A DNA stretch of 39,627 nucleotides from a virus. The stretch is from IMG/VR virus record IMGVR_UViG_3300030104_004005, positions 1-39,627 of that record, one strand, 5' to 3'. Shown piece after piece: positions 2,988 through 35,322 of this stretch (within the stretch, counting starts at the first letter, position 1; every line of letters starts with the position of its first letter). Made by a program: the position numbers and the translations under genes. Below the pieces are notes generated by a model. That model was not told the origin of the DNA. It saw only the letters and a program-made list of their open reading frames with translations, and made no database searches.

Positions 2988-4540
2988 CTGCCAGCTACCT
3001 CTTGAATGTCGATATCAAGGCCGGTTAGCCGCCAGTAGTCTGATGCTGAATCTGACGAGATTCGCAGCGCGAAATATCTGCCGCTGGTTCTAAAATCTAC
3101 TTTATGGTCAGACTCCACGTTGAAGGTTTTATCAACTTGCCAACGTATGCCGTCTTGAGGGGCATCAGAAATGCCGACCTCAATGCGGACAGAGCCTGTG
3201 CCCTCCATTTGCGGCATGATGCCTTTAAGTTGTTTTATATTCCGAGTGGACTGACCAATGACCTGATCTAGGTCAATCTTTGTGGCCTCCAAAAAGGCGC
3301 TCATAGAGCTTCCGCTTAAACCGTTTGTGTCTTTCAGAATTCTAATTTTGCTGTCGGTGTAGCACGCACCAAACACACGGATATTGTTAGCCTGCGTACC
3401 GAGGCTGACGTTCGACCAGTAGTCGCTAGATTGGTTCCAAGTTGCAGTCGAGTTAGCGTAATTCCCACTTGTATCCATGCGGTCAGCGACGGTTAAGGCT
3501 CTGACGCTGGGTAGGTCTATAAACGTGAATGCGTCCTGCGCCCAATTGTAGACCAGTGCTCGATTAGCCGACTCTGCGTCGGTGGCATCTTGATCGCTGT
3601 AGCAGATGTAAACCTCAGTAGAGTCTGGGATGGTTTGGCAAAACACAGAACGTATGTCGGCTAAATCGTTGAAAAAAGTTCGCCTAACTTTGTTGTCCAC
3701 CAGCGACTTCTTATTCGACCCATCGTGCAGATAGATGTCGTTCTGTCCTACCACAACGTGACCGTTAGGAATCGAAGCCACAGCGCCTCGGTTAATGATT
3801 CCATCGTCGCTAAAGACCTCGCGGAAGCTAAACACCAACGGGAACCCAATAAAGTCCATGGCGTACACACCGCGCTCGGCGTAAATGATATTTGAGTTGT
3901 TCAGAGTCAGTTGATCGACCAATTCGCCGTTGGAGCCGCCCAGTGTTGTCTCGCCGGAGAGGTTAGTGGTGCTAGCTATGTCGTAGTCGCTTGGGATGCT
4001 GGAGGGGTCATACTCATCACTCCATCTCACCGTGTACGGCCTTTTACTGCTTCCGATCTCGTAACCCGCCATGACCAAAAAGCTGTTAAAAGGTTTCAAG
4101 CAGCCAGTGATTAACCCGCTGGGCCACGAAGGAAGGTCAGCAAAGCGCGTGCCGTTGGGCAGCATGTATTGCGGAGCCTGGGCGCCATTGTTCATTAGCA
4201 TCGCCGTGCCAAGCTGAGCGCCTTGCCAGCGGGGTGAGTTGCTGTAGTTTGTGGCGTCGGAGGTTTTGGTCACGTTGGTGACCGTCGTACCGTCGAAGCG
4301 GTACAGCTTGTTAAGCGCCCCGATCACCAACGTGTTATTTCCGCTGTAGAGCCAACCTTGAACATGAGTTGGCTGAAACGATAAAGATTGTCTAACGCTG
4401 TGACCCAGCGCCTTGCCGATACGTCCAGAGTGAAACGTCACATTGTTGCCGCTTGGGAATTGCGTTAGCTCTAGATCGTAAGGGTCTTGATCAGTGACTA
4501 TGCCGCCTGCGCCGATTTTTCTTAAAGGTATGTATGGCAT
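2984..4540 (-). CDS. Tail nozzle / tail-stabilisation protein
   Basis: This 518-residue, beta-rich protein begins MPYIPLRKIGAGGIVTDQDP and has many Trp/Tyr/Gly turns, such as VQGWLYSGNN, VRWSDEYDPSS and HVVVGQNDIYLHDG. That is the pattern of podovirus nozzle proteins (P22 gp10, T7 gp12 or SU10 nozzle-like), which fold as beta-propellers closing the DNA channel. The length fits that group. It is the largest non-fibre tail protein in the late operon. It overlaps the following 83-residue gene by four bases and the preceding gene by one base. Assignment rests on style, size and gene order, not on a catalytic motif. Confidence 0.72.
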   Translation of the reverse strand: MPYIPLRKIGAGGIVTDQDPYDLELTQFPSGNNVTFHSGRIGKALGHSVRQSLSFQPTHVQGWLYSGNNTLVIGALNKLYRFDGTTVTNVTKTSDATNYSNSPRWQGAQLGTAMLMNNGAQAPQYMLPNGTRFADLPSWPSGLITGCLKPFNSFLVMAGYEIGSSKRPYTVRWSDEYDPSSIPSDYDIASTTNLSGETTLGGSNGELVDQLTLNNSNIIYAERGVYAMDFIGFPLVFSFREVFSDDGIINRGAVASIPNGHVVVGQNDIYLHDGSNKKSLVDNKVRRTFFNDLADIRSVFCQTIPDSTEVYICYSDQDATDAESANRALVYNWAQDAFTFIDLPSVRALTVADRMDTSGNYANSTATWNQSSDYWSNVSLGTQANNIRVFGACYTDSKIRILKDTNGLSGSSMSAFLEATKIDLDQVIGQSTRNIKQLKGIMPQMEGTGSVRIEVGISDAPQDGIRWQVDKTFNVESDHKVDFRTSGRYFALRISSDSASDYWRLTGLDIDIQEVAGR

Positions 4541-5753: not shown

Positions 5754-6127
5754 TATTTTTTCACCTTGTTCATAATGCCAATCGCACCTCTAACCCCAAA
5801 CGAAGCTGCGATAACGATAGACAATCCCGTTTGATACCACTGCGGCATGGTCTCCAAAACAACAAAACCTTCACGGACATAAGGCACGGCGCTAGGAATA
5901 AAAGCCAATATCAAAGGTATGCTGAATAAAATTGTTAGCCACTCATCTTTCCAGCTTTGATTACTAGCCCGTGCCATTGCGGTTTCCCAATCAGCCGCGC
6001 TTTTGGCTTGGGTCTTCATCACAGAAGCTTCCGCTTCCGCTTTCGCTTTAGTCTTTGCGGTCTTACCCTCTAACCAAGTTTTGCCTAACTCAGCTACTGG
6101 CCCTATGACTGCTGTGAGTAAACTCAT
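5753..6127 (-). CDS. Putative holin (two C-terminal membrane segments)
   Basis: ATG at 6127 overlaps the upstream TGA (ATGA), so I place the start there, giving 124 residues. An amphipathic, Lys/Ala-rich helix (about residues 20-45) is followed by EWLTILFSIPLILAFIPSA (63-81) and a second hydrophobic segment (about 99-118), ending in Lys. This resembles the holin family associated with gene-transfer-agent and marine phage release. The gene directly follows a coiled-coil/TM protein and an M15 endolysin, completing a lysis cassette. The role would be inner-membrane permeabilisation. Topology is read by eye only. Confidence 0.68.
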   Translation of the reverse strand: MSLLTAVIGPVAELGKTWLEGKTAKTKAKAEAEASVMKTQAKSAADWETAMARASNQSWKDEWLTILFSIPLILAFIPSAVPYVREGFVVLETMPQWYQTGLSIVIAASFGVRGAIGIMNKVKK

Positions 6128-22182: not shown

Positions 22183-22479
22183 ATGGTCGAAATTAAATCA
22201 GAACGCGAGCTTGCCGCTTTTTTGTTAGGCGTCACCGTAGGGCATGATTTTGATTGTAGTGTCGAATCGTTGACAGAGGACTCAATGATTTTTAGTGATT
22301 ATGAGTCGCTGTCTGTTTTTGTGTCTAAAGGCGAACCCATCCACGGTGAAGGCGATTGTATGAAAGGACATTTCGCGGTGACAGGGGCCGCTGTGGAGGC
22401 CCAAAAAGACGCAAAGCTTCAATGGGAAAAATGGGCAAAGCATGAAGCCGAGAAACCCACTAAAAAGGTGAAAAAATGA
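22183..22479 (+). CDS. Hypothetical early protein
   Basis: I choose the ATG at 22183, seven bases after AAGGAG, over an upstream in-frame codon at 22156. The 98-residue product begins MVEIKSERELAAFLLGVTVG and is acidic in the middle. It ends with a Trp/Lys-rich helix (WEKWAKHEAEKPTKKVKK). No family or motif recognised. The end overlaps the next start by four bases (ATGA), so the two are probably translated together. Confidence 0.68.
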   Translation: MVEIKSERELAAFLLGVTVGHDFDCSVESLTEDSMIFSDYESLSVFVSKGEPIHGEGDCMKGHFAVTGAAVEAQKDAKLQWEKWAKHEAEKPTKKVKK

Positions 22480-22886
22480 AAAAAGTAGTACCTCCAGTCT
22501 TCAAGACTTTAACGAAAACAATGATCGAAAAAGGCAACCCCGATTGCTGGGGCGAGCTTGCCACGTTTGCGCGTTTGTTCGGTGTCGATTTCGACACACT
22601 CGAAAACGGGCAGCGCGTCGAGGTGCCGCTGGCGTTTATCGATGGCAGCGAGAGCGTCATCCGCTTTTACCGAGTGACGGGCAAAGGTGGACGCAAAGAC
22701 AAGCGCTACAGCATCCCCGCCGCAGACCTACGCGCACAAGCAAGCGTCGGCGATACCATCGCTTTCACGTTTAAAATTGACAACCAAGGCAAAGCAATAA
22801 TCTGTGCTAACGTCACGCGACAACCTGAGTTTGTCAATTTGACAACCGACAATCTCGATGTATCGGCTTTGGAGGCGCACCTGTGA
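22476..22886 (+). CDS. Hypothetical early protein, beta-rich
   Basis: The 136-residue protein has an N-terminal helical third. After it comes a beta-rich part: RVEVPLAFIDGSESVIRFYRVTGKGGRKDKRYSIP, then VGDTIAFTFKIDNQGKAIICANV. The RYSIP..DL...VGDTI.F arrangement is faintly reminiscent of small DNA-binding beta barrels of the EcoRII-N/B3 type, but this is only a resemblance. Overlaps its neighbours on both sides by four bases. Function not recognised. Confidence 0.65.
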   Translation: MKKVVPPVFKTLTKTMIEKGNPDCWGELATFARLFGVDFDTLENGQRVEVPLAFIDGSESVIRFYRVTGKGGRKDKRYSIPAADLRAQASVGDTIAFTFKIDNQGKAIICANVTRQPEFVNLTTDNLDVSALEAHL

Positions 22887-23215
22887 AAATATCTCTACAC
22901 CTTGATAGCGACGAAATAAAGCAGCTAACACATACCTACCAAAAAAGCTTTTTGCACTGCCAGCCTGACCGATTTGAAATGATCAGGACGGTTATCGATG
23001 GCGTCAATAAATCAACGCCGCATAGTATTAGCGAGGTAGACCCCAACGGCGATGGGTGGCTTGCGTGGATAGAAGGCGAAAGCTACATCTTTGCAAAAAT
23101 TTATGCCGAGTGGTGCGCTACGCACCAAACAGGGCATAAGATATTCATATTGTGGGACACATCCGAAGACCATAGCGGCTGGGTTGTATGGTCTCCCCAA
23201 GAATCTGAGGCGTAA
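22883..23215 (+). CDS. Last gene of the early operon, hypothetical (GTG start)
   Basis: GTG at 22883 overlaps the previous TGA (GTGA). The 110-residue product begins MKISLHLDSDEIKQL and is rich in aromatic residues (DGWLAWIEGESYIFAKIYAEWC, GWVVWSPQ). No signal peptide, membrane segment or known motif is visible. A terminator hairpin starts about 30 bases after the stop, so this closes the transcription unit that began at 20017. Confidence 0.65.
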   Translation: MKISLHLDSDEIKQLTHTYQKSFLHCQPDRFEMIRTVIDGVNKSTPHSISEVDPNGDGWLAWIEGESYIFAKIYAEWCATHQTGHKIFILWDTSEDHSGWVVWSPQESEA

Positions 23216-23242
23216 AAGGCGCTAGGCACAGGGGCACAGGCT

Positions 23243-23280
23243 AGGCACAGGTTGACATTCTCAGCCTGTGCCTTTTTTTT
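23243..23280 (+). terminator. Rho-independent terminator of the early operon
   Basis: AGGCACAGG (23243-23251) pairs with CCTGTGCCT (23265-23273) around a 13-base loop and is followed by eight or more T residues. The alternative left arm at 23233-23242 pairs even further. The stem arms are also members of the repeat family that fills the following non-coding region, so terminator and repeat array share sequence. Confidence 0.83.
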
Positions 23281-23508
23281 CGAGCAAAAACAATGACTTA
23301 GACCATTAGGCACGGGTGGCACGGGTGGCACGGGCTATTTTCCAATTCGCTGGGGGGAGTGTGTAAGGGGCCAGTAGGCACGGCGGCACGCCTAAACGTA
23401 CTACTCTTATATATTTCCCCTAATAAAAAAGAAAATAACCCGTGCCTGCCGTTCCTTACACGCTAGACCCCGTCACATAAGGGTTTTTTAGGCACAGGCT
23501 CCGTTTTT

Positions 23509-23560
23509 GAACCCGTGCCTAACCCGTGCCTTTTGGCCTAACCCGTGCCTAACGTCAACC
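23509..23560. repeat. 52-base direct repeat, copy A
   Basis: The sequence matches 23609-23660 at 49 of 52 positions, exactly 100 bases away. Each copy contains three inverted iteron motifs spaced 11 and 19 bases, then aacgtca. A forward motif also precedes each copy at about the same distance (23491 and 23589). Confidence 0.9.
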
Positions 23561-23608
23561 TTTGGTTAATTATGCCTCGCACAAGGTAGGCACAGGCTCG
23601 CATCGTCC

Positions 23609-23660
23609 GAACCCGTGCCTAACCCGTGCCTTTTGGCCTAGCCTGTGCCTAACGTCACCC
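23609..23660. repeat. 52-base direct repeat, copy B
   Basis: Second copy of the 52-base unit, with three substitutions relative to 23509-23560. Two of them change the third motif from the CCCGTGCC to the CCTGTGCC form. It lies directly before the AT-rich tract. Confidence 0.9.
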
Positions 23661-23757
23661 GCTGGCCCCAGATCGCCAAGAAAATGCAAAATTTGAATTT
23701 TTTTATAAAATTGAAAACTCAAAAATCTTGAAAACTTTTTGCAGAAATTTTTGATTT

Positions 23758-23795
23758 TAAAAAGCCCCGCCTTTGGCCCCACGGACGGGAACGTG
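23758..23795 (-). repeat. 38-base direct repeat, copy 1 (possible tandem terminator)
   Basis: Begins TAAAAAGCCCCGCC and ends ACGGACGGGAACGTG. It recurs at 23850-23887 with differences confined to the middle nine bases. Read on the minus strand, each unit has a GC-rich segment (with a small GCC/GGC hairpin) followed by TTTTT. These may be successive weak terminators for the minus-strand genes ending at 23913, or protein-binding sites bounding the origin. Confidence 0.6.
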
Positions 23796-23849
23796 GTCGC
23801 GAGCCTAAATCTCCTATTCCCAATGTCGAGGAAGACTTCGGCACTGGCC

Positions 23850-23887
23850 TAAAAAGCCCCGCCTTCTGGCACACGGACGGGAACGTG
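23850..23887 (-). repeat. 38-base direct repeat, copy 2
   Basis: Second copy, 92 bases from the first and 25 bases downstream (minus strand) of the stop at 23913. The conserved outer parts and variable middle suggest that both ends are under selection. Confidence 0.6.
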
Positions 23888-23912: not shown

Positions 23913-24101
23913 CTACTTCTTTTGCATCTGCAATAAATACTCTCGCCTGGACATATCGGCCTTACTCAGCCGCCCACGCTCCCGCTGGTACTGACCGCTA
24001 TCGATCTGTTTGATCGTGCCGCCATTGTCTAAATACTTTTGCAGCGCATCGGCTGTGCGCTCACGTTCTTTTTCTTTGGTGTTGTTATTAGAGGATCGCA
24101 T
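23913..24101 (-). CDS. Small charged hypothetical protein
   Basis: The 62-residue, very hydrophilic protein (KEKERERTADALQKYLDNGG, then QYQRERGRLSKADMSRREYL) probably forms two helices. The start overlaps the upstream stop (TAATG), so it is coupled to the zinc-ribbon gene. The DALQKYLDNGGTIKQI segment resembles short phage proteins with a small HTH-like fold, but the match is weak. It is the last gene of the minus-strand block before the repeat region. Confidence 0.6.
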   Translation of the reverse strand: MRSSNNNTKEKERERTADALQKYLDNGGTIKQIDSGQYQRERGRLSKADMSRREYLLQMQKK

Positions 24102-25333: not shown

Positions 25334-27604
25334 TTAAAAAGGCACATCTTCATCGCTCACCCAGTTAGCTGGGTCTAGCGGGTCAGGCCGATCATCCTCA
25401 GTCCAGCGGACATCGATGCCGAGGTATTCTTGGAAACGACTGCGTGCCTCCTTCAAGGTTTTGAGCCTCACCGCCCTAAATCGCGTACCGGCAGATCGCT
25501 TATGAACCTCTTCCTCATACGCGCCAGCAGACCGCAGAGCCTTCCAAAAACTGTTTTCTTTGATCACGCTCTCATAGCGTCCTCGCACACTGGAAGCGTA
25601 GATCGCGTAAAGCTGTGTCTTGCTCACCTCCTCCCCAAACTGGAGAGACTCGCCAGCAATTTTATGTTCGCGGAACTCTGCATTTTGCAGACTAGCGAGC
25701 AGCCATGAGTCCACACCGTTGAGGTTCTCAAGCTTCTGTTCATCCAGAGCGTCGGTCTGCGGAGCCTTGCGGACGTTGACCGTGGTCAAGTCAAAATGCT
25801 TCAGGTAGTACAGCAGAGCGCCACCGCCGCCGTTGTGAAACCAAGAATCTAAAGACTCAAAATACCTACTGTCCTCTTTGCGGCTGGCACTGATGTCGAA
25901 CACAGCGAACCGCCGCTCGTCCAGCGTAGCTGGCACAACGAAGTCATCATTACTGGTGAACACAATCCGCGTGTAGTTGGGTGCCATGTAACCGTCCACG
26001 CCTTTCTTTTCGACAAATATCTGGCTGGCAGTCAGTAGGTCTTTTAATGCCGACTCTGCGGCCTTGGCACCGGCCCAGTACGCCTCTTCTCCGCAAAGCA
26101 GTAACGTCTCTTGCAGGTGTTTGTTGAAGTTGCCAGTTATGTGCTCGGCCTTGCTCGCACTGGTGAAGTGGCTTTTGACAAGCCAGCCCAGCAGTTCGGC
26201 AAATTTGGTCTTACCCGTACCCTTCAACCCTCTAAGCACTAAACCAATACCGATCTTAATTTGCGGTTGCTGAACCATCTGAGCGCACCACGCGATAATC
26301 CAGTTGGCGTTTGCAACGTTACCGTCCGCGATTACGTCCGTAATGAAGTCAATCCACGGCTGCACATCTCCCTGCACTGGCTCAACTGACCAACCGCGCC
26401 ACAGGTTATACTGATTGATTGATTCACCGTCTGGGCTGAACGCTAAACCGGCTGGGTATGTCTTTCGTTCTTCATGCTCTAGCCACATATCGACCAGATT
26501 CACCAACCTGGGCGTCTTGCCCTCATAACTCATAACCCGTTGATTTTGAAACTCTTTTCTAACGTCTTCTAAGCCGTACAGGACGGTTCGGTCTTGGAAT
26601 ATGTCATCGCGCACCACCCTCGCGTGGCCTTCAACTAGCACCAACGACCAGTTCTGTAGCATATGCGGTAAAACTCCCTCGACCTTTTCCCGCATGACCT
26701 CTTCGGCTTCTTCTTGCTTGGCTAAGGACGCCACATAGGCCAGCGTCACCGGCACCTTGCCTTGACTGTCGAAGCTCTCCCAACGCTTTTCGCATTCACC
26801 GTCTTTAAACTTCTCGCCTTCGGCAGACCACTCTGCCCAAAGCTGCAAACCTTCGTCACCACCGTCGAACTGGTGGTGCAGCGCCATGCCTATGCGGAAC
26901 CAGTGATCGTGGTCTATGTCGGGATCTACTTTTGCAAGCATCTCGGTCACGTCCCCGCTTTCTGCCTCAAACTTAGGACGTAGCGCGAGTAGCTCGTCAT
27001 ATTCGTTTAAATTGCCGTCTAACCCCTTTCGGCTTTCCTGCCATCCCGCCTCGCGTGCTTTACGCTCAAAGAAATCTATGAACTTACGGGCCATGTCTTC
27101 GGTCAGTTCTGGTAAATCTTGGTGATCGACACTGTCTAGCGATGCGTAGGATTTCAACCATCGGTAGGGTTTGTTCGTGTCTGGATGGATTCCAAAAGCA
27201 ACGAATTGCTGACCGTCAGCTAGCACCTCTACTGCGTGTTTGTTGCCTTCTTGACACTCAAACTCAGCCGACTTGATCTTTTTACGCGGGTTTCCACGAT
27301 ACGCGAACAGCATCTTGGGTTGGTTACCAATCCGGGCAGCGGCGATACCGACGTTCTCTTCCAGCCACGCAGCCAGCTTCTTTACCATGCTGACGTTTCG
27401 GCAATCGACATCCACGGCAATCGTGTTTTTGCACAGCACACCGATTCCGCTCTCAGGGTATTTTTTCGCCCAACAGGCTAAGTCATCGTGCGTAGCCTCA
27501 GCGTTTTGCCAATCATCGATGCACGGGAACTTCTTTCCGCGATGAATAGGTATGACTTTATATCCACGGTCAATCAACCGCGCTCCAATTTCTGTGAGCA
27601 TCAC
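25334..27604 (-). CDS. Primase-helicase (Prim-Pol + PriCT + SF3/DUF5906 ATPase)
   Basis: This 756-residue replication initiator-type enzyme has three parts. The N-terminal archaeo-eukaryotic primase domain (about 1-200) has the metal motif DVD (65-67) and a later catalytic His in FGIHPD (H140). A PriCT-like domain follows (222-285: AKVDPDIDHDHWFRIGMALHHQF). The superfamily 3 helicase has Walker A GLKGTGKT (459-466), Walker B LLLCGEEA (501-508), sensor TSND (550-553) and Arg finger candidates at 564-565. It should synthesise primers and unwind DNA at the phage origin. It starts at GTG 27604 or ATG 27601, with AGGGG upstream. The ribosome site lies next to a CCTGTGCC iteron-like octamer (27609-27616). 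Confidence 0.92.
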   Translation of the reverse strand: MMLTEIGARLIDRGYKVIPIHRGKKFPCIDDWQNAEATHDDLACWAKKYPESGIGVLCKNTIAVDVDCRNVSMVKKLAAWLEENVGIAAARIGNQPKMLFAYRGNPRKKIKSAEFECQEGNKHAVEVLADGQQFVAFGIHPDTNKPYRWLKSYASLDSVDHQDLPELTEDMARKFIDFFERKAREAGWQESRKGLDGNLNEYDELLALRPKFEAESGDVTEMLAKVDPDIDHDHWFRIGMALHHQFDGGDEGLQLWAEWSAEGEKFKDGECEKRWESFDSQGKVPVTLAYVASLAKQEEAEEVMREKVEGVLPHMLQNWSLVLVEGHARVVRDDIFQDRTVLYGLEDVRKEFQNQRVMSYEGKTPRLVNLVDMWLEHEERKTYPAGLAFSPDGESINQYNLWRGWSVEPVQGDVQPWIDFITDVIADGNVANANWIIAWCAQMVQQPQIKIGIGLVLRGLKGTGKTKFAELLGWLVKSHFTSASKAEHITGNFNKHLQETLLLCGEEAYWAGAKAAESALKDLLTASQIFVEKKGVDGYMAPNYTRIVFTSNDDFVVPATLDERRFAVFDISASRKEDSRYFESLDSWFHNGGGGALLYYLKHFDLTTVNVRKAPQTDALDEQKLENLNGVDSWLLASLQNAEFREHKIAGESLQFGEEVSKTQLYAIYASSVRGRYESVIKENSFWKALRSAGAYEEEVHKRSAGTRFRAVRLKTLKEARSRFQEYLGIDVRWTEDDRPDPLDPANWVSDEDVPF

Positions 27605-27615
27605 ATCCCCTGTGC

Positions 27616-27768
27616 CTAGCTATCTAAGTTTTTTATTTTTTGGTTGCAGTAATCGACTAAGTCTCGGCAAGCGTCTGCCAGCATCTCCGAGAAAGACGCA
27701 ATGAAAAGCAAGATCGCCTCTGAAATTTTTGCAAGTATCGCCACGAAGGCGTAAACGTGGGCAAGCAT
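27616..27768 (-). CDS. Small hydrophobic/amphipathic protein
   Basis: The ATG at 27768 overlaps the TAA of the Cro-like gene (TAATG), and AAGG lies upstream. The 50-residue product is hydrophobic for its first 32 residues (MLAHVYAFVAILAKISEAILLFIASF) and charged after that (RDLVDYCNQKIKNLDS). It could be a single-span membrane protein or an amphipathic helix. The gene sits between a regulator and the primase in the same transcript. No family recognised. Confidence 0.58.
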   Translation of the reverse strand: MLAHVYAFVAILAKISEAILLFIASFSEMLADACRDLVDYCNQKIKNLDS

Positions 27769-28040
27769 TAAACCTTTTGCCATTCATGCGAAAGACTCTC
27801 TGTGTCCTTCACCAAATCAGGGCACAAGGACTGCCATTTAATCTCGCCGTTCGTCAGCAGTTCTATCTGACACGCTCGCGCCGCTGGCACAGCGCCACTC
27901 GTCCTCCACTTACTGATCGCCTGCTTCGTCACATCTAAGCGACCCGCGAGCCTGTTAAAAGAATCGTTAGCCAAAAGGTGGCAGGCGCGGTCAAGCTGTT
28001 CGACTGCTTTTCTCCTCGCGGGGTCTGTTTGATACCGCAT
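27768..28040 (-). CDS. Cro/YdaS-like DNA-binding regulator
   Basis: In this 90-residue protein, residues 28-47 form a helix-turn-helix (FNRLAGRLDVTKQAISKWRT), followed by GAVPAARACQIELLTNGEIKW and LCPDL. The order (HTH, then G.VPA..C..IE..T.G......LCPDL) is the signature of the YdaS/Cro antitoxin-type family used as Cro-like repressors. AAGGAG lies ten bases before the ATG. It is divergent from the nuclease-polymerase operon, so it can control both directions from the 113-base gap. It heads the primase transcript. Confidence 0.83.
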   Translation of the reverse strand: MRYQTDPARRKAVEQLDRACHLLANDSFNRLAGRLDVTKQAISKWRTSGAVPAARACQIELLTNGEIKWQSLCPDLVKDTESLSHEWQKV

Positions 28041-28153: not shown

Positions 28154-28726
28154 GTGCATCAGTTTGATTTAGATCTAGAACCCGCTCACGCAGAGCTTAG
28201 TGCTAGTTCCGCTCACCGCTGGATCGCTTGCCCCGCTTCCATACAAGCGAGTCGCGGGATGCCAGACACTTCTGGTCAAGCCGCAGAAGAAGGAACAGCC
28301 GCACACGCTTTGGCAGAACGGTGTTTAGTAGAGGATGTCGAGCCTCACGAATATCTGGGCCATGAATTCAACGGTTACACTGTAGGGTTAGAGATGGCGA
28401 ACCTCGTCAAAATCTACACCGACCACTGCCGAAGCCTCCCCCAAGGTTTTACTTTTGTAGAGCGTAAAGTCGATTTTAGCATGTGGGTGCCGGACGGTTG
28501 GGGAACGGCAGACTTCATAAGCATCGCCCGAAACGGTGGCGAGGCATGGGTGGTAGACCTTAAATTTGGACGCATACCCGTCAAGGCTGACAACGATCAG
28601 TTGAAATGTTACGCGCTGGGTGTGCATTTTGAGTTTGGATTCGATTCTCAAATCGACACTATTCACATGACGATAGTGCAGCCGCGACTCGGTGTCATCG
28701 ACACGCACACGATGCGATGCAAATGA
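28154..28726 (+). CDS. DUF2800 nuclease, N-terminal part (split gene)
   Basis: GTG at 28154 follows GGAGGG. This 190-residue part holds C26 in WIACPAS, the EEGTAAHALAE helix, GTADFI (D120) and VVDLKFGR (D135, K137), which is the PD-(D/E)XK nuclease core of the DUF2800/Cas4-AddB-like family. The normal family protein continues into the Cys-rich part found at 28717-29310. Here the frame ends at a TGA (28724-28726) where the next frame starts with ATG (ATGA). A one-base loss, a -1 frameshift or genuine two-subunit coding are the options. Probable role: processing DNA ends or recombination during replication. Confidence 0.8.
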   Translation: MHQFDLDLEPAHAELSASSAHRWIACPASIQASRGMPDTSGQAAEEGTAAHALAERCLVEDVEPHEYLGHEFNGYTVGLEMANLVKIYTDHCRSLPQGFTFVERKVDFSMWVPDGWGTADFISIARNGGEAWVVDLKFGRIPVKADNDQLKCYALGVHFEFGFDSQIDTIHMTIVQPRLGVIDTHTMRCK

Positions 28727-29310
28727 GTCAGATGGGCTTACTGGAGTGGGGCCGCACCGTCCTACGTCCTGCGGCAGAAGCTGCCCTTGGAGACAACCCA
28801 GAATACAACGCTGGTGAGTCTCAATGCCGATACTGCAAAGCTGCGCCAACGTGTAAACCACTGGCAAATCGGGCTTTAGACGCCCTTGACTCTGCGATTG
28901 ACGAATCTTTCACACCGCCAGAGATCAATGACCTTTCGGTAGAGCAGATCGCAAAGCTGCTACCGCAAATCCCCTTAATAAAATCGTGGTGCGAAAAAGT
29001 CGCACAGCACGCATCAATCTTGGCGCAGCAAGGCACAAAGATCGACGGCTACAAGATTGTCGAATCGAAAACAAACAGGCGCTGGAGGGACGAAGCGGAG
29101 GCTATTCGCGTCATGCAGCTATTAACAAACGAGCCGGTTTATTCGGCAAAAGTAATTTCGCCAACCCAAGCAATCACCATGCTGGGAACGAAATGCGATG
29201 ACGTAAATGCGCTCATCGTCAAACCGGCAGGGAAGCCGACACTGGTGCCAGAGTCCGACAAGCGGACGGCAATCGGTAAACCGGCAGATCTGCTAGATAA
29301 ATTGGACTAA
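28717..29310 (+). CDS. DUF2800 nuclease, C-terminal Fe-S part (split gene)
   Basis: The frame is open from ATG 28717 or 28723 to 29310. It starts MSQMGLLEWGRTVLRP, the point where intact relatives continue without a break. C37, C40 and C46 (CRYCKAAPTCKPL) would complete, with C26 of the first part, the four-Cys iron-sulphur cluster of Cas4/AddB-type nucleases. A helical C-terminal region follows (VEQIAKLLPQIPLIKSWCEKV...), then a Lys/Pro tail (KPAGKPTLVPESDKR). Since both parts supply cluster ligands, they must be joined or associate for normal activity. Confidence 0.78.
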   Translation: MQMSQMGLLEWGRTVLRPAAEAALGDNPEYNAGESQCRYCKAAPTCKPLANRALDALDSAIDESFTPPEINDLSVEQIAKLLPQIPLIKSWCEKVAQHASILAQQGTKIDGYKIVESKTNRRWRDEAEAIRVMQLLTNEPVYSAKVISPTQAITMLGTKCDDVNALIVKPAGKPTLVPESDKRTAIGKPADLLDKLD

Positions 29311-29323
29311 ATAGGTAATAGGT

Positions 29324-29884
29324 ATGGATAAGACCATCGTCTTAAAGAATGTGCGTTTGTCGTTTGCTGACATTTGGGCAGCAAAAGCTTTTAACCCAGG
29401 TTCACAACCCAAATACAGTTGCAACTTTTTGCTCGATAAAGAAACGCACGCTGATCAAATCAAGGCTATGCAGAAAAAGATTTCTGACTTGGAGACGGAT
29501 TTCTTCAACGGCAAGCCCCCAAAAGGCATCAAAAAATGTCTTGGTGACGGCGAAGAAAAAGCTTACGAAGGCTATGAAGGCCAGATGTTTGTAAGCGCCA
29601 GTAGCGTCAGACGGCCTGAGATAATTGATCGCGACAAAAGCGAATTGGTTGAGTTAGACGAAAAGCCCTACTCAGGTTGCTACGTCAACGCCGTTATCGG
29701 TCTTTGGGTGCAGGACAACCAGTACGGCAAGCGTGTAAATGCAAATTTAGATCTGATCCAGTTCGTAAAAGACGGTGAGCGGTTTGGAGGTGGCGGCGGC
29801 AGCAAAGCCGACCTGTTGGATGACATCGAAGACGAAACCGCTGCGGACGTTGAGGCAGAAACCGAGGATGAGTTCTTTAAGTGA
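29324..29884 (+). CDS. DUF2815 single-stranded DNA-binding protein
   Basis: The 186-residue protein starts MDKTIVLKNVRLSFADIWAAK, the family signature. A beta-rich, OB-like body follows, with PKYSCNFLLDK, GYEGQMFVSASS and SGCYVNAVIGLW. The last 30 residues are Gly-rich, then strongly acidic (DDIEDETAADVEAETEDEFF). An acidic tail ending in Phe residues is how SSB proteins recruit partners. It lies between the DUF2800 nuclease and PolA genes, the usual neighbours of this family in phage replication modules. The stop overlaps the polymerase GTG start. Confidence 0.88.
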   Translation: MDKTIVLKNVRLSFADIWAAKAFNPGSQPKYSCNFLLDKETHADQIKAMQKKISDLETDFFNGKPPKGIKKCLGDGEEKAYEGYEGQMFVSASSVRRPEIIDRDKSELVELDEKPYSGCYVNAVIGLWVQDNQYGKRVNANLDLIQFVKDGERFGGGGGSKADLLDDIEDETAADVEAETEDEFFK

Positions 29885-30321
29885 TCATCTCTCTCGACTT
29901 CGAGACCTACAGCGAAATCGACCTCCGCTCGGCGGGAGCCTACGCTTACGCAGATCACCCCAGTACGGAAGTGATTTGCTTGGCGTGGGCGCTCAACGAG
30001 GAGCCTCCAGAGCTTTGGCGTTGGGGAGACTTACCTCCCGTAGAGCTATTTCACCACATTGAGCAAGGCGCACAAATCTGGGCGTGGAACAGCTTTTTTG
30101 AGATGTGCGTTTGGAATCTTGTTTTAGATTGGCCTCGCATCCCGTTTGAGCAATGGAACGACACCGCAGCCCTCGCCTCTGTACAAGCTTACCCCCGTGC
30201 GCTGGCGAACTGCGGCACGTTTCTGGGTCTGGAAGGAGACCAAGCGAAAGACAAGCGAGGCAAGTTGTTGATCCAACGCCTGTGCAAGCCGCAAAAGGTA
30301 AGGACGAAGCGTGCGAAATAG
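29881..30321 (+). CDS. DNA polymerase A, N-terminal exonuclease part (split gene)
   Basis: The GTG at 29881 overlaps the upstream TGA (GTGA). The 146-residue part contains Exo I (SLDFETYSEIDL) and Exo II (WAWNSFFEMCVWNLVL), then DTAALASVQAYPRALANC, and closes with GKLLIQRLCKPQKVRTKRAK and TAG. Exo III lies in the next frame. The 3'-5' exonuclease domain is thus cut between motifs II and III. The last sense codon is AAA followed by TAG. A +1 frameshift at this point would join the two frames; an insertion error or a natural break are alternatives. Confidence 0.8.
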   Translation: MIISLDFETYSEIDLRSAGAYAYADHPSTEVICLAWALNEEPPELWRWGDLPPVELFHHIEQGAQIWAWNSFFEMCVWNLVLDWPRIPFEQWNDTAALASVQAYPRALANCGTFLGLEGDQAKDKRGKLLIQRLCKPQKVRTKRAK

Positions 30322-31780
30322 AGATCCTGACATGCTGCAAGAACTTTACAGCTACTGTGAGCAGGACGTTGTTGCGGAGAGCGAGATACGAAAAAGACTA
30401 CGAGATCTGCGCGGAACTGAACGCCAAATATGGGAACTCGACCAGAGAATAAACTGGCGAGGTGTGCGCTTAGACAAAGAAAACATCGAGCATGCGTTAG
30501 CAATTATCGCTGACGTGGAACAAGAGCTTAACGCTGAAGTGTTTGAGCTTACCGATGGCGAGATGTCATCGACCAGCAGCCGCGCTAAGGCGCTTGATTG
30601 GATTAACCGTCAAGGCGTGACGATGGAGACCTACGACAAAGCCGCTGTTGTTTGTGCTTTGGAAGGTGCTTGCCCTCCGAAGGTTGAGCGTTTCCTGCAA
30701 ATCCGACAGGCGCTGTCGCGCAGCAGCACTAAAAAATACCAAGCCATGTTGTCTTGCTTGGGCCGCGACGGCAGAGCGCATGGCAGCATGATTTATTCTG
30801 GCGCTGCTACTGGCAGGTGGACAGGCCGTCACTTCCAACCACAAAACTTACCTCGCCCAACAGTCGATGATGTTGATGCGGTTATTGGTTTGTTTAAACA
30901 CAGAGACCCCTCACTCTTTCCATGCGAACCGATGGAGGCACTGTCCAGTTGTTTGCGTGGAATGCTGATTGCCAGCGAGGGTAATCGGCTGATTGTCAGC
31001 GACTACAGCGCCATAGAAGCGCGTGTCATTGCGTGGCTTGCAGGGCATGACATTGTGTTGCAGTCGTTTCGCGACGGTCTTGATCTTTACAAGGTCACAG
31101 CGTCAGCCATGTTCGGTATTGAGTACCGCGATGTCGATAAGGATCAACGATTTTTAGGCAAAGTAGCTAGCCTCGCACTTGCGTATCAAGGCGGTGTTCG
31201 TGCTTTCCAAAAAATGGCACAGACTTATGGCACCGACGTTGATGAACCTACTGCGATACGGATCAGAGACGATTGGCGTGCAGCTAACGAACCTATCAAG
31301 AAGTTGTGGAACGAAGTAGAACGCGCAGCAATGAACGCAGTCCGATACGGTACAGAGCAAGACACCCGATGCGGATCTTTCAAATTCGTCAAACGCGACC
31401 TTCTCTTCAAGTTGCCATCAAAACGAATACTTTCTTTCCCCAGAGCCTTGCTGGCTGATGGACAGTACGGCGAGAAGCTGGTCTATGAAGGCATCAACAA
31501 TCACACACACCGCTGGGGCCAGATAGACAGCTACGGCGGTTCGCTCGTGCAGAGCATCACTCAAGCGGTTGCCAGAGACCTTCTTGCTTTGTCCGTATGG
31601 AATGTTGAGCAAGCTGGCTACCCCGTGGTGCTGACTGTGCATGACGAGATTGTTGCAGACGTGCCAAAGGGATTTGGATCGTTAGACGAATTCAATGAAC
31701 TCATGTGCAAGCTTCCTTCATGGGCCAAGGGTCTGCCCGTGGACGTTGAAGGCTACGAGTCCGAAAGATATCGAAAGTGA
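30311..31780 (+). CDS. DNA polymerase A, Exo III and polymerase part (split gene)
   Basis: GTG at 30311 opens a 489-residue frame that starts RNRDPDMLQELYSYCEQDVVAE, containing Exo III (Y..YC.QD). Polymerase motif A is SDYSAIEARVIAW (D231, R238). Motif B is FLGKVASLALAYQGG (K284, Y292). Motif C is VLTVHDEIVAD (HDE 444-446). All catalytic residues of the polymerase half are intact, so this part alone could polymerise but would lack proofreading. The GTG has no clear ribosome site. The stop overlaps the start of the VRR-NUC gene. Confidence 0.88.
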   Translation: MRNRDPDMLQELYSYCEQDVVAESEIRKRLRDLRGTERQIWELDQRINWRGVRLDKENIEHALAIIADVEQELNAEVFELTDGEMSSTSSRAKALDWINRQGVTMETYDKAAVVCALEGACPPKVERFLQIRQALSRSSTKKYQAMLSCLGRDGRAHGSMIYSGAATGRWTGRHFQPQNLPRPTVDDVDAVIGLFKHRDPSLFPCEPMEALSSCLRGMLIASEGNRLIVSDYSAIEARVIAWLAGHDIVLQSFRDGLDLYKVTASAMFGIEYRDVDKDQRFLGKVASLALAYQGGVRAFQKMAQTYGTDVDEPTAIRIRDDWRAANEPIKKLWNEVERAAMNAVRYGTEQDTRCGSFKFVKRDLLFKLPSKRILSFPRALLADGQYGEKLVYEGINNHTHRWGQIDSYGGSLVQSITQAVARDLLALSVWNVEQAGYPVVLTVHDEIVADVPKGFGSLDEFNELMCKLPSWAKGLPVDVEGYESERYRK

Positions 31781-34320: not shown

Positions 34321-35322
34321 TTAGTTATCGAGGACAAGTGATTCAGCGTCCATCGCGGCTACCACCTTGTCAGCGTTTAAATGCGTGTATCTTTTGAGCA
34401 TATTCAAATCTCTGTGACCAGAAAAAAGCTGCACGCGCATAATGTCGTAACCAAGCTCAAACAAACGACTTACACCTTCATGGCGAAGATCGTGAAAACG
34501 AGCTTCTAGAGGAACTTTTTTAGCCGCCGCTCTCCAGCGACTACTTACTGTTTCACCCTCATAGGGAAAAATCTTGTCACTCGTTCTTTCTTGCCGCTGC
34601 ACTATCTCTGCCGCCTCTTCTTGCAACGGTACTCGCACATATCTTTTACCTTTGCGTGGGCATTTTCTCCACAAGCCGATTGTTCGACCATCTTCGCCTA
34701 ATTCATCCCAGGTCATTTCTAGTATTTCGCCACGGCGCATAGCTGACAAAACAGCAAACCTAACAATGTCTCTAAACGGCAACCTAGTGCTCGCGTTGCT
34801 AATGACTTGGTCAATTTCTGCATCAGTTATCCTGATTTCACGCTCATCAGACTCTGACACGATCCGCATTGATCTTAAAAAGTGTGAGGCTTTCCTAAAC
34901 TCATCTAATTTAGGTTTGCAGTCGTAGGCCGCTTCAGCGGCTTTCAAGACTCCTCCCAGATAAACCATGTCTTTTTGCACTGTGCTTGGGTGAACCTTTT
35001 CCCCACGCTTTTTTGCAAACCTTATTATGGCTGGAGAAGTCAATTCGTTTAGGCTCAGATGACCCAACTCTTTTTTTACAGTTTCAAGGTGCCCAACCTT
35101 GTCTCTCGGAAACGGGCCATAGTCTTTTAAATAGTTGGTAATCAACACGCCAAGGTTTGATGTGTCCTCAAACCAAGTGCCTTTTTTTAGAGCAGTTTCA
35201 ATCTCTTTCATTCTGTCTTCAGCTTCAGACTTTTTGGCAAAACCGCTTTCAGAAATCGTATCGATTCCAGCTTTGCGAATTAGAACTCTGTAGCCTTTAC
35301 CGTGCTTACTAATGCTGCCCAT
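34321..35322 (-). CDS. int: Tyrosine recombinase integrase
   Basis: The 333-residue protein integrates and excises the phage. The N-terminal arm-binding region (KHGKGYRVLIRKAG...SEAEDRMKEIE) and SAM-like core-binding domain (about 55-145) precede the catalytic domain. That domain has R196 in SAMRRGEIL, K226 near RYVRVPL, H277-R280 in FHDLRHEG, H303 in SGHRDLNM and the nucleophile Y312 in KRYTHLN. All catalytic residues are present. Its start lies at the edge of a repeat-rich non-coding stretch likely to be attP. Integration site not identifiable here. Confidence 0.93.
   Translation of the reverse strand: MGSISKHGKGYRVLIRKAGIDTISESGFAKKSEAEDRMKEIETALKKGTWFEDTSNLGVLITNYLKDYGPFPRDKVGHLETVKKELGHLSLNELTSPAIIRFAKKRGEKVHPSTVQKDMVYLGGVLKAAEAAYDCKPKLDEFRKASHFLRSMRIVSESDEREIRITDAEIDQVISNASTRLPFRDIVRFAVLSAMRRGEILEMTWDELGEDGRTIGLWRKCPRKGKRYVRVPLQEEAAEIVQRQERTSDKIFPYEGETVSSRWRAAAKKVPLEARFHDLRHEGVSRLFELGYDIMRVQLFSGHRDLNMLKRYTHLNADKVVAAMDAESLVLDN

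Follow-up and report, generated by a model that had tools for sequence, protein, structure and literature searches.

The DNA analysed here (the window) is a stretch of 39,627 nucleotides from a virus of the IMG/VR collection. It contains a gene-free gap between a plus-strand operon, whose last gene ends at position 23215, and a minus-strand block, whose last gene ends at position 23913. The gap lies at the 3′ ends of both convergent operons and is filled by an array of short repeats, which consists of 16 exact copies of the octamer GGCACRGG within 425 bp, eight of them forward and eight inverted. The virus encodes podovirus-type portal and head genes, an integrase and a repressor. A partition site was considered as a role for the array and set aside; no partition gene was seen among the proteins scanned. 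Its replication genes code for a DUF2800 exonuclease, an SSB, a PolA polymerase and an SF2 helicase, and on the strand opposite to these lie a Cro-like protein and a primase-helicase with PrimPol, PriCT-2 and DUF5906 domains. The features of the locus and of the primase gene are as follows.

23225–23649, both strands: iteron array, 16 exact GGCACRGG, eight per strand (octamer counts; conserved in relatives)
23225, 23233, 23244, 23309, 23318, 23327, 23491 and 23589, plus strand: forward copies of GGCACRGG (exact match)
23265, 23439, 23512, 23523, 23542, 23612, 23623 and 23642, minus strand: inverted copies of GGCACRGG (exact match)
23242–23280, plus strand: terminator-like hairpin formed by two inverted iterons and followed by eight T (−22.7 kcal/mol, z −7.6)
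23309–23335, plus strand: tandem block of three 9-bp iterons GGCACGGGT, head to tail (no variation in 7/7 genomes for the 23318 and 23327 copies)
23340–23362, unstranded: conserved block containing six consecutive G, not iteron-like (80% mean pairwise identity)
23377–23392, plus strand: degenerate iteron pair GGCACGGC (23377) and GGCACGCC (23385), kept in relatives as GGCACGGYGGAACGG
23395–23438, unstranded: internal AT-rich tract, candidate unwinding element (73–82% AT in 7/7 genomes)
23439–23446, minus strand: iteron bordering the internal AT tract on the right; a degenerate copy follows at about 23447–23455
23509–23565, unstranded: direct repeat, copy 1, 57 bp, with three inverted iterons (present in 7/7 genomes)
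23609–23665, unstranded: direct repeat, copy 2, 100 bp downstream of copy 1 (in the alignment, found besides the window only in contigs L009 and L018)
23681–23763, unstranded: second AT-rich tract (84% AT here, 56–72% in relatives)
25334–27604, minus strand: PrimPol/PriCT-2/DUF5906 primase-helicase, proposed initiator (Pfam; PHROG DNA primase)
25415–25642, minus strand: C-terminal winged-helix domain, proposed to bind the iterons (about residues 655–730, AlphaFold model)

Much of this had been described in an earlier note made from the sequence: the number of exact octamers in each orientation, the gene-free stretch, the tandem block of three 9-base units, the two degenerate copies and the phage's own primase-helicase are all borne out by our analysis. 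The genome-wide count that the note proposed as a check finds 20 octamers in the whole window, where 2.03 would be expected (sd 1.42; maximum of 7 in 100 shuffles), which is far above chance. For the 16 copies within 425 bp, a Poisson estimate is about 1e-40. The note had listed two isolated copies in genes, at 3195 and 37491; there are in fact four outside the array, the others being at 5968 and 27609. At 27602–27622, a lone iteron within a 14-nt match to the array's left end (GCTAGGCACAGGGG) overlaps the primase ribosome-binding site. Relatives lack this copy, which could be either a chance occurrence or a self-regulatory site.

The array has an ordered internal structure. Forward iterons (23309–23334 and the pair 23377/23385) and inverted ones (23439 and its degenerate neighbour, which is an exact octamer in contigs L014 and L016) converge on the internal AT tract at 23395–23438. 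The earlier note had instead pointed to the AT-rich sequence at 23681–23763; this tract is indeed AT-rich in the window, but it is not conserved as such. Judged from the alignment, the AT tract that matters is the internal one, which would provide a conserved unwinding element within the iterons. The outer parts of the array form inverted arms (23223–23273 versus 23490–23540, 75% complementary). The two direct repeats measure 57 nt, are 91% identical and, as noted earlier, are spaced 100 bp apart. The G-run block that lies between the iteron groups is a possible priming or protein site. At the left end, the predicted hairpin at 23242–23280 is positioned directly past the early operon; both iterons of its stem are kept in 7/7 genomes, the R position being paired as A-T, G-C or G-U. 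On the other side of the gap, where the primase-side operon has its 3′ end, the stretch 23758–23887 holds two copies (89% identical) of a 38-nt sequence with a minus-strand T run. These repeats may be tandem terminators; their predicted folds are weak.

It had been suggested that the two forms of the octamer, with A or G at position 6, separate two binding specificities or affinities. Within the window, C tends to follow the A form and T the G form (Fisher p 0.03). In relatives, however, the A form precedes T, G or C, the two forms are interchangeable at most sites, and the R position shows 71% identity across a seven-genome alignment. As this position varies freely, it does not encode two specificities, and we rejected two motif classes as a code.

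We examined the conservation of the array in 11 viral contigs with a primase 87–89% identical to that of the window. The six of these that extend to the site all have the array in the same position, with 10–15 exact copies each, 2.34–2.36 kb downstream of the primase (1.69 kb in the window). Two further array contigs were found by DNA pattern, one spanning the array (L039) and one ending inside it (L044), so that the array is kept in 8/8 related contigs reaching the site. Loss of the repeats in close relatives with the same primase, which the earlier note had named as evidence against an origin, is thus not observed. Setting R aside, the iterons show 99% pairwise identity across the seven aligned genomes and 75 of their 77 columns do not vary, whereas the spacers drift (76% identity). 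The flanking small genes are 25–57% identical or replaced, and the gene to the left of the array varies among genomes; the array therefore outlasts its neighbours. Two interrupted replication genes were also compared. PolA is encoded by two overlapping ORFs at 29881–31780 (exonuclease, 29881–30321; polymerase, 30311–31780), and its junction GCGTGCGAAATAGAGA is nearly unchanged in six relatives, so that the split looks stable. The DUF2800 exonuclease (28154–29310) likewise consists of two overlapping ORFs in the window; the sequence at its break differs in relatives, in which the gene may be continuous. No relatives of the primase were found in one-genome-per-species assemblies. A portal search yielded one MAG contig, L083 (PBSY01000002.1). 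Binning had placed this phage contig in a Verrucomicrobiales MAG, but its host assignment is uncertain; it is the same contig as L084 of IMG/VR.

We then surveyed 22 phages, not independent of one another, with a primase of the PrimPol-DUF5906 type, scanning regions centred on the primase for exact octamers in 500-bp windows with at least two copies per strand. Mixed-orientation arrays of at least five copies occur in 9/22 phages (the window, BcepNazgul, AH2, RHph_X2_30, SEP13, S9a, RDJL6, Tedan and PCA1), and all nine start 13–3578 bp downstream of the primase. When all 13 top arrays are considered, 9/13 fall in this downstream zone (binomial P 6e-5, the phages not being independent samples). 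Four phages yielded at best four-copy matches, located elsewhere, a level that shuffled sequence occasionally reaches; the remaining phages yielded no match. Since 13/22 phages lack an array of at least five copies, among them Pamexvirus, Yuavirus, the Vibrio VP2-like phages and Providencia Kokobel1, the rule is not universal. The iteron words vary by lineage (AGGTCCGA, AGGTCCAAG, GGTTACAA, ATTACAAG, CTGGTCCG, AGGCCTTAC), with one word common to BcepNazgul and AH2. In Mallos, V45iii, DLP4 and BUCT555 the repeats are confined to one strand and were set aside, since they are probably coding repeats. When P4 is scanned in a similar way, the ori type 1 repeats annotated in its record, GGTGAACA, are recovered.

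Several features used to recognize origins were also considered. GC skew, proposed earlier as a check, lends no support to any placement: it tracks gene strand (detrended minimum at 27945, maximum at 34349) and is for that reason uninformative, as is AT skew. The window contains no terminal direct repeat of at least 15 bases. The array is intergenic and hence differs from lambda-type origins, in which the iterons lie within the initiator gene. DnaA-box-like sites are rarer than chance, with a single TTWTNCACA in the window (27427) against 3.9 expected; none lies in the array, which sets it apart from DnaA-dependent iteron plasmid origins. Direct similarity searches of the array DNA against annotated phages and plasmids gave no match, and in the open-access literature we found no description of such arrays in this phage type.

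The layout resembles that of known origins. P4 alpha, a primase-helicase, binds its iterons directly. The P4 ori and crr (record NC_001609) also consist of octamer iterons in both orientations, in steps of about 9–18 bp and carried on direct repeats (the crr being 120 bp long), and the crr octamers lie immediately downstream of the alpha gene with a terminator beside them; the window array, too, is downstream of its primase-helicase gene and has a terminator-like hairpin. The comparison with P4 is one of DNA layout. The two systems differ in the word (GGTGAACA in P4, GGCACRGG in the window) and in that P4 ori and crr are about 5 kb apart, whereas the window has one cluster. It has been shown that the C-terminal domain of SaPI Rep and of SCCmec Cch2 binds repeats located just downstream of their own genes (PMC7581432), and SaPIs share with the window short intergenic iterons downstream of an initiator helicase gene (PMC7581432). 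In the window, however, the helicase is fused to PrimPol and the array lies 1.7 kb downstream, past small genes, not immediately adjacent to the gene as in P4 and SaPI. Members of the Casjensviridae (BcepNazgul, AH2, Chi-like phages), RDJL6 and Tedan (Roseobacter/Ruegeria) combine a related primase with a downstream mixed-orientation octamer array, and the Casjensviridae have the exonuclease-SSB-PolA-helicase/Cro-primase gene block in common with the window; all of these phages use another iteron word, and their arrays are unannotated in the records examined.

If the primase-helicase is the initiator, it would be expected to join a helicase domain to a C-terminal DNA-binding domain. DUF5906 provides the former, and its helicase part matches PDB entries 6k9c and 6k9e (molecule named Primase), which we take to be the primase-polymerase of the deep-sea phage NrS-1; this is a weak sequence match only. 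For the latter, an AlphaFold model of the C-terminal region (mean pLDDT 70) suggests a winged helix at residues 655–730, with pLDDT mostly of 70–88 and the order strand-helix-helix-helix-strand-strand. A model of the whole primase together with 12 close relatives reached a pLDDT of 32. In Foldseek, the C-terminal model best matches viral replication proteins or proteins related to them, including a helicase of Iridovirus LCIVAC01 (E 2e-5) and Gp33 of phage PhiJL001 (E 8e-5). Against the PDB no match falls below E 0.05, the weak matches including several winged-helix proteins.

Taking these results together, we consider it likely that the region is the replication origin of the phage, the PrimPol-helicase binding the iterons through its C-terminal winged helix. 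With similar confidence, we regard it as a further iteron origin of the P4/SaPI style, a known type in which the word changes by lineage. The conservation in relatives, the recurrence downstream of the same primase type and the P4 and SaPI precedents make the iteron origin first proposed in the earlier note the best-supported reading.

Which protein the iteron word follows can be judged from a sister clade, with a primase about 48% identical and the gene order kept. Its word is ACCCAACTC in L103, and ACCCGGCAC or CCCGGCACA in L084, L086, L107, L092 and L108. Most of these arrays have 4–6 clear copies, and some escaped the exact-octamer search, L103 alone having about ten copies; the iterons still flank an AT/GA-rich tract. 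In L092 (14800–15000), L103 (7190–7350) and L107 (15150–15350), a GA-rich tract and paired TCCAYATGGA-like elements are found near the centre. L084 and L107 agree in their iterons and have nearly the same primase, but their TerS recognition helices differ, while L084 and L103 have the TerS helix AASLGVSTPTFERRKK in common and differ in their iterons. The Cro recognition helix, EKQNVAAWR, is identical in all three. On these three contigs, the comparison points to an iteron word that follows the primase, and not TerS or Cro.

These data bear on the view that the array is a packaging site (pac or cosB), where the small terminase subunit binds repeats to start packaging. In the sister clade the array is roughly 100–150 bp upstream of terS, the BcepNazgul array is less than 600 bp from the annotated cos end, and the arrays of AH2 and RHph_X2_30 are near the record end. 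The word, however, does not track the TerS recognition helix, either in the three sister-clade contigs or in the window clade, where one iteron word occurs with two types of TerS helix. The window array is 3.4 kb from terS, and in Halomonas phage H4907 the repeat cluster adjoins the primase and is separated from terS by lysis genes. An AT-rich tract surrounded by many inverted octamers is, moreover, atypical of pac or cosB. We regard a packaging site as unlikely.

The array could also be an origin bound by a host protein or another phage protein, with the primase-helicase recruited secondarily. The early gene product encoded at 22476–22886 is also conserved (77–82%) and might be such a binder. 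The scarcity of DnaA-box-like sites, the sister-clade word that follows the primase and the direct binding by SaPI Rep and Cch2 (PMC7581432), like that by P4 alpha, all argue in the other direction and make this arrangement improbable.

We give still less weight to an operator cluster for a Cro-like or other HTH regulator of the two convergent operons, which appears very unlikely. A P22-Cro/YdaS-like gene lies within the primase operon, and iteron-like sites could serve as its operators, but the array is at the operon 3′ ends, away from promoters. The Cro-like protein, named earlier as a possible binder, is an unlikely one because its recognition helix does not change between relatives whose iterons differ. 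A small HTH protein gene found near the array in relatives is missing from the window, where the array is intact.

Least probable of all is a structured non-coding RNA or terminator set that lies between the convergent operons and plays no part in replication: the hairpin at 23242–23280 is strong and inverted copies can pair, but the region has no Rfam family match up to E = 1, most iterons lie outside T-tailed hairpins (the fold at 23488–23536 has a z of −1.7), RNA folding leaves the tandem 9-bp copies unexplained, and other phages keep a mixed-orientation array with different words. As 23242–23280 forms a predicted hairpin resembling an intrinsic terminator, a transcribed element would coexist with the origin.

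Returning to the origin, the array resembles those of SaPI and P4 and probably works in the same way. In the replicon of this temperate marine podovirus, which has its own PrimPol-DUF5906 primase-helicase, the C-terminal winged helix of that protein would bind the GGCACRGG iterons, and helicase rings would assemble on the two converging iteron groups. The AT tract at 23395–23438 between these groups would then melt and the primase-helicase would prime synthesis, with SSB and PolA encoded beyond the primase gene. The outer iterons (the left arm and the 57-bp repeats) would probably be P4-crr-like, extra sites that load or regulate the initiator, and the iteron pair at 23242–23280 would end early-operon transcription before the origin.

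To our knowledge, few origins are known for phages with their own primase-helicase outside P4 and the SaPI satellites. The array is a concrete, testable candidate origin for an uncultured marine phage group. We lean slightly towards the broader view that PrimPol-DUF5906 phages share a modular P4-like replicon, in which a lineage-specific word of 8–10 bp co-evolves with the primase winged helix. If this is true, cognate origins could be found from sequence alone in many families, and pairs of initiator and iteron could show how recognition works. The comparison suggests matched pairs of this kind in the Casjensviridae and other families, which would allow a direct test of the recognition code of this type of helicase.
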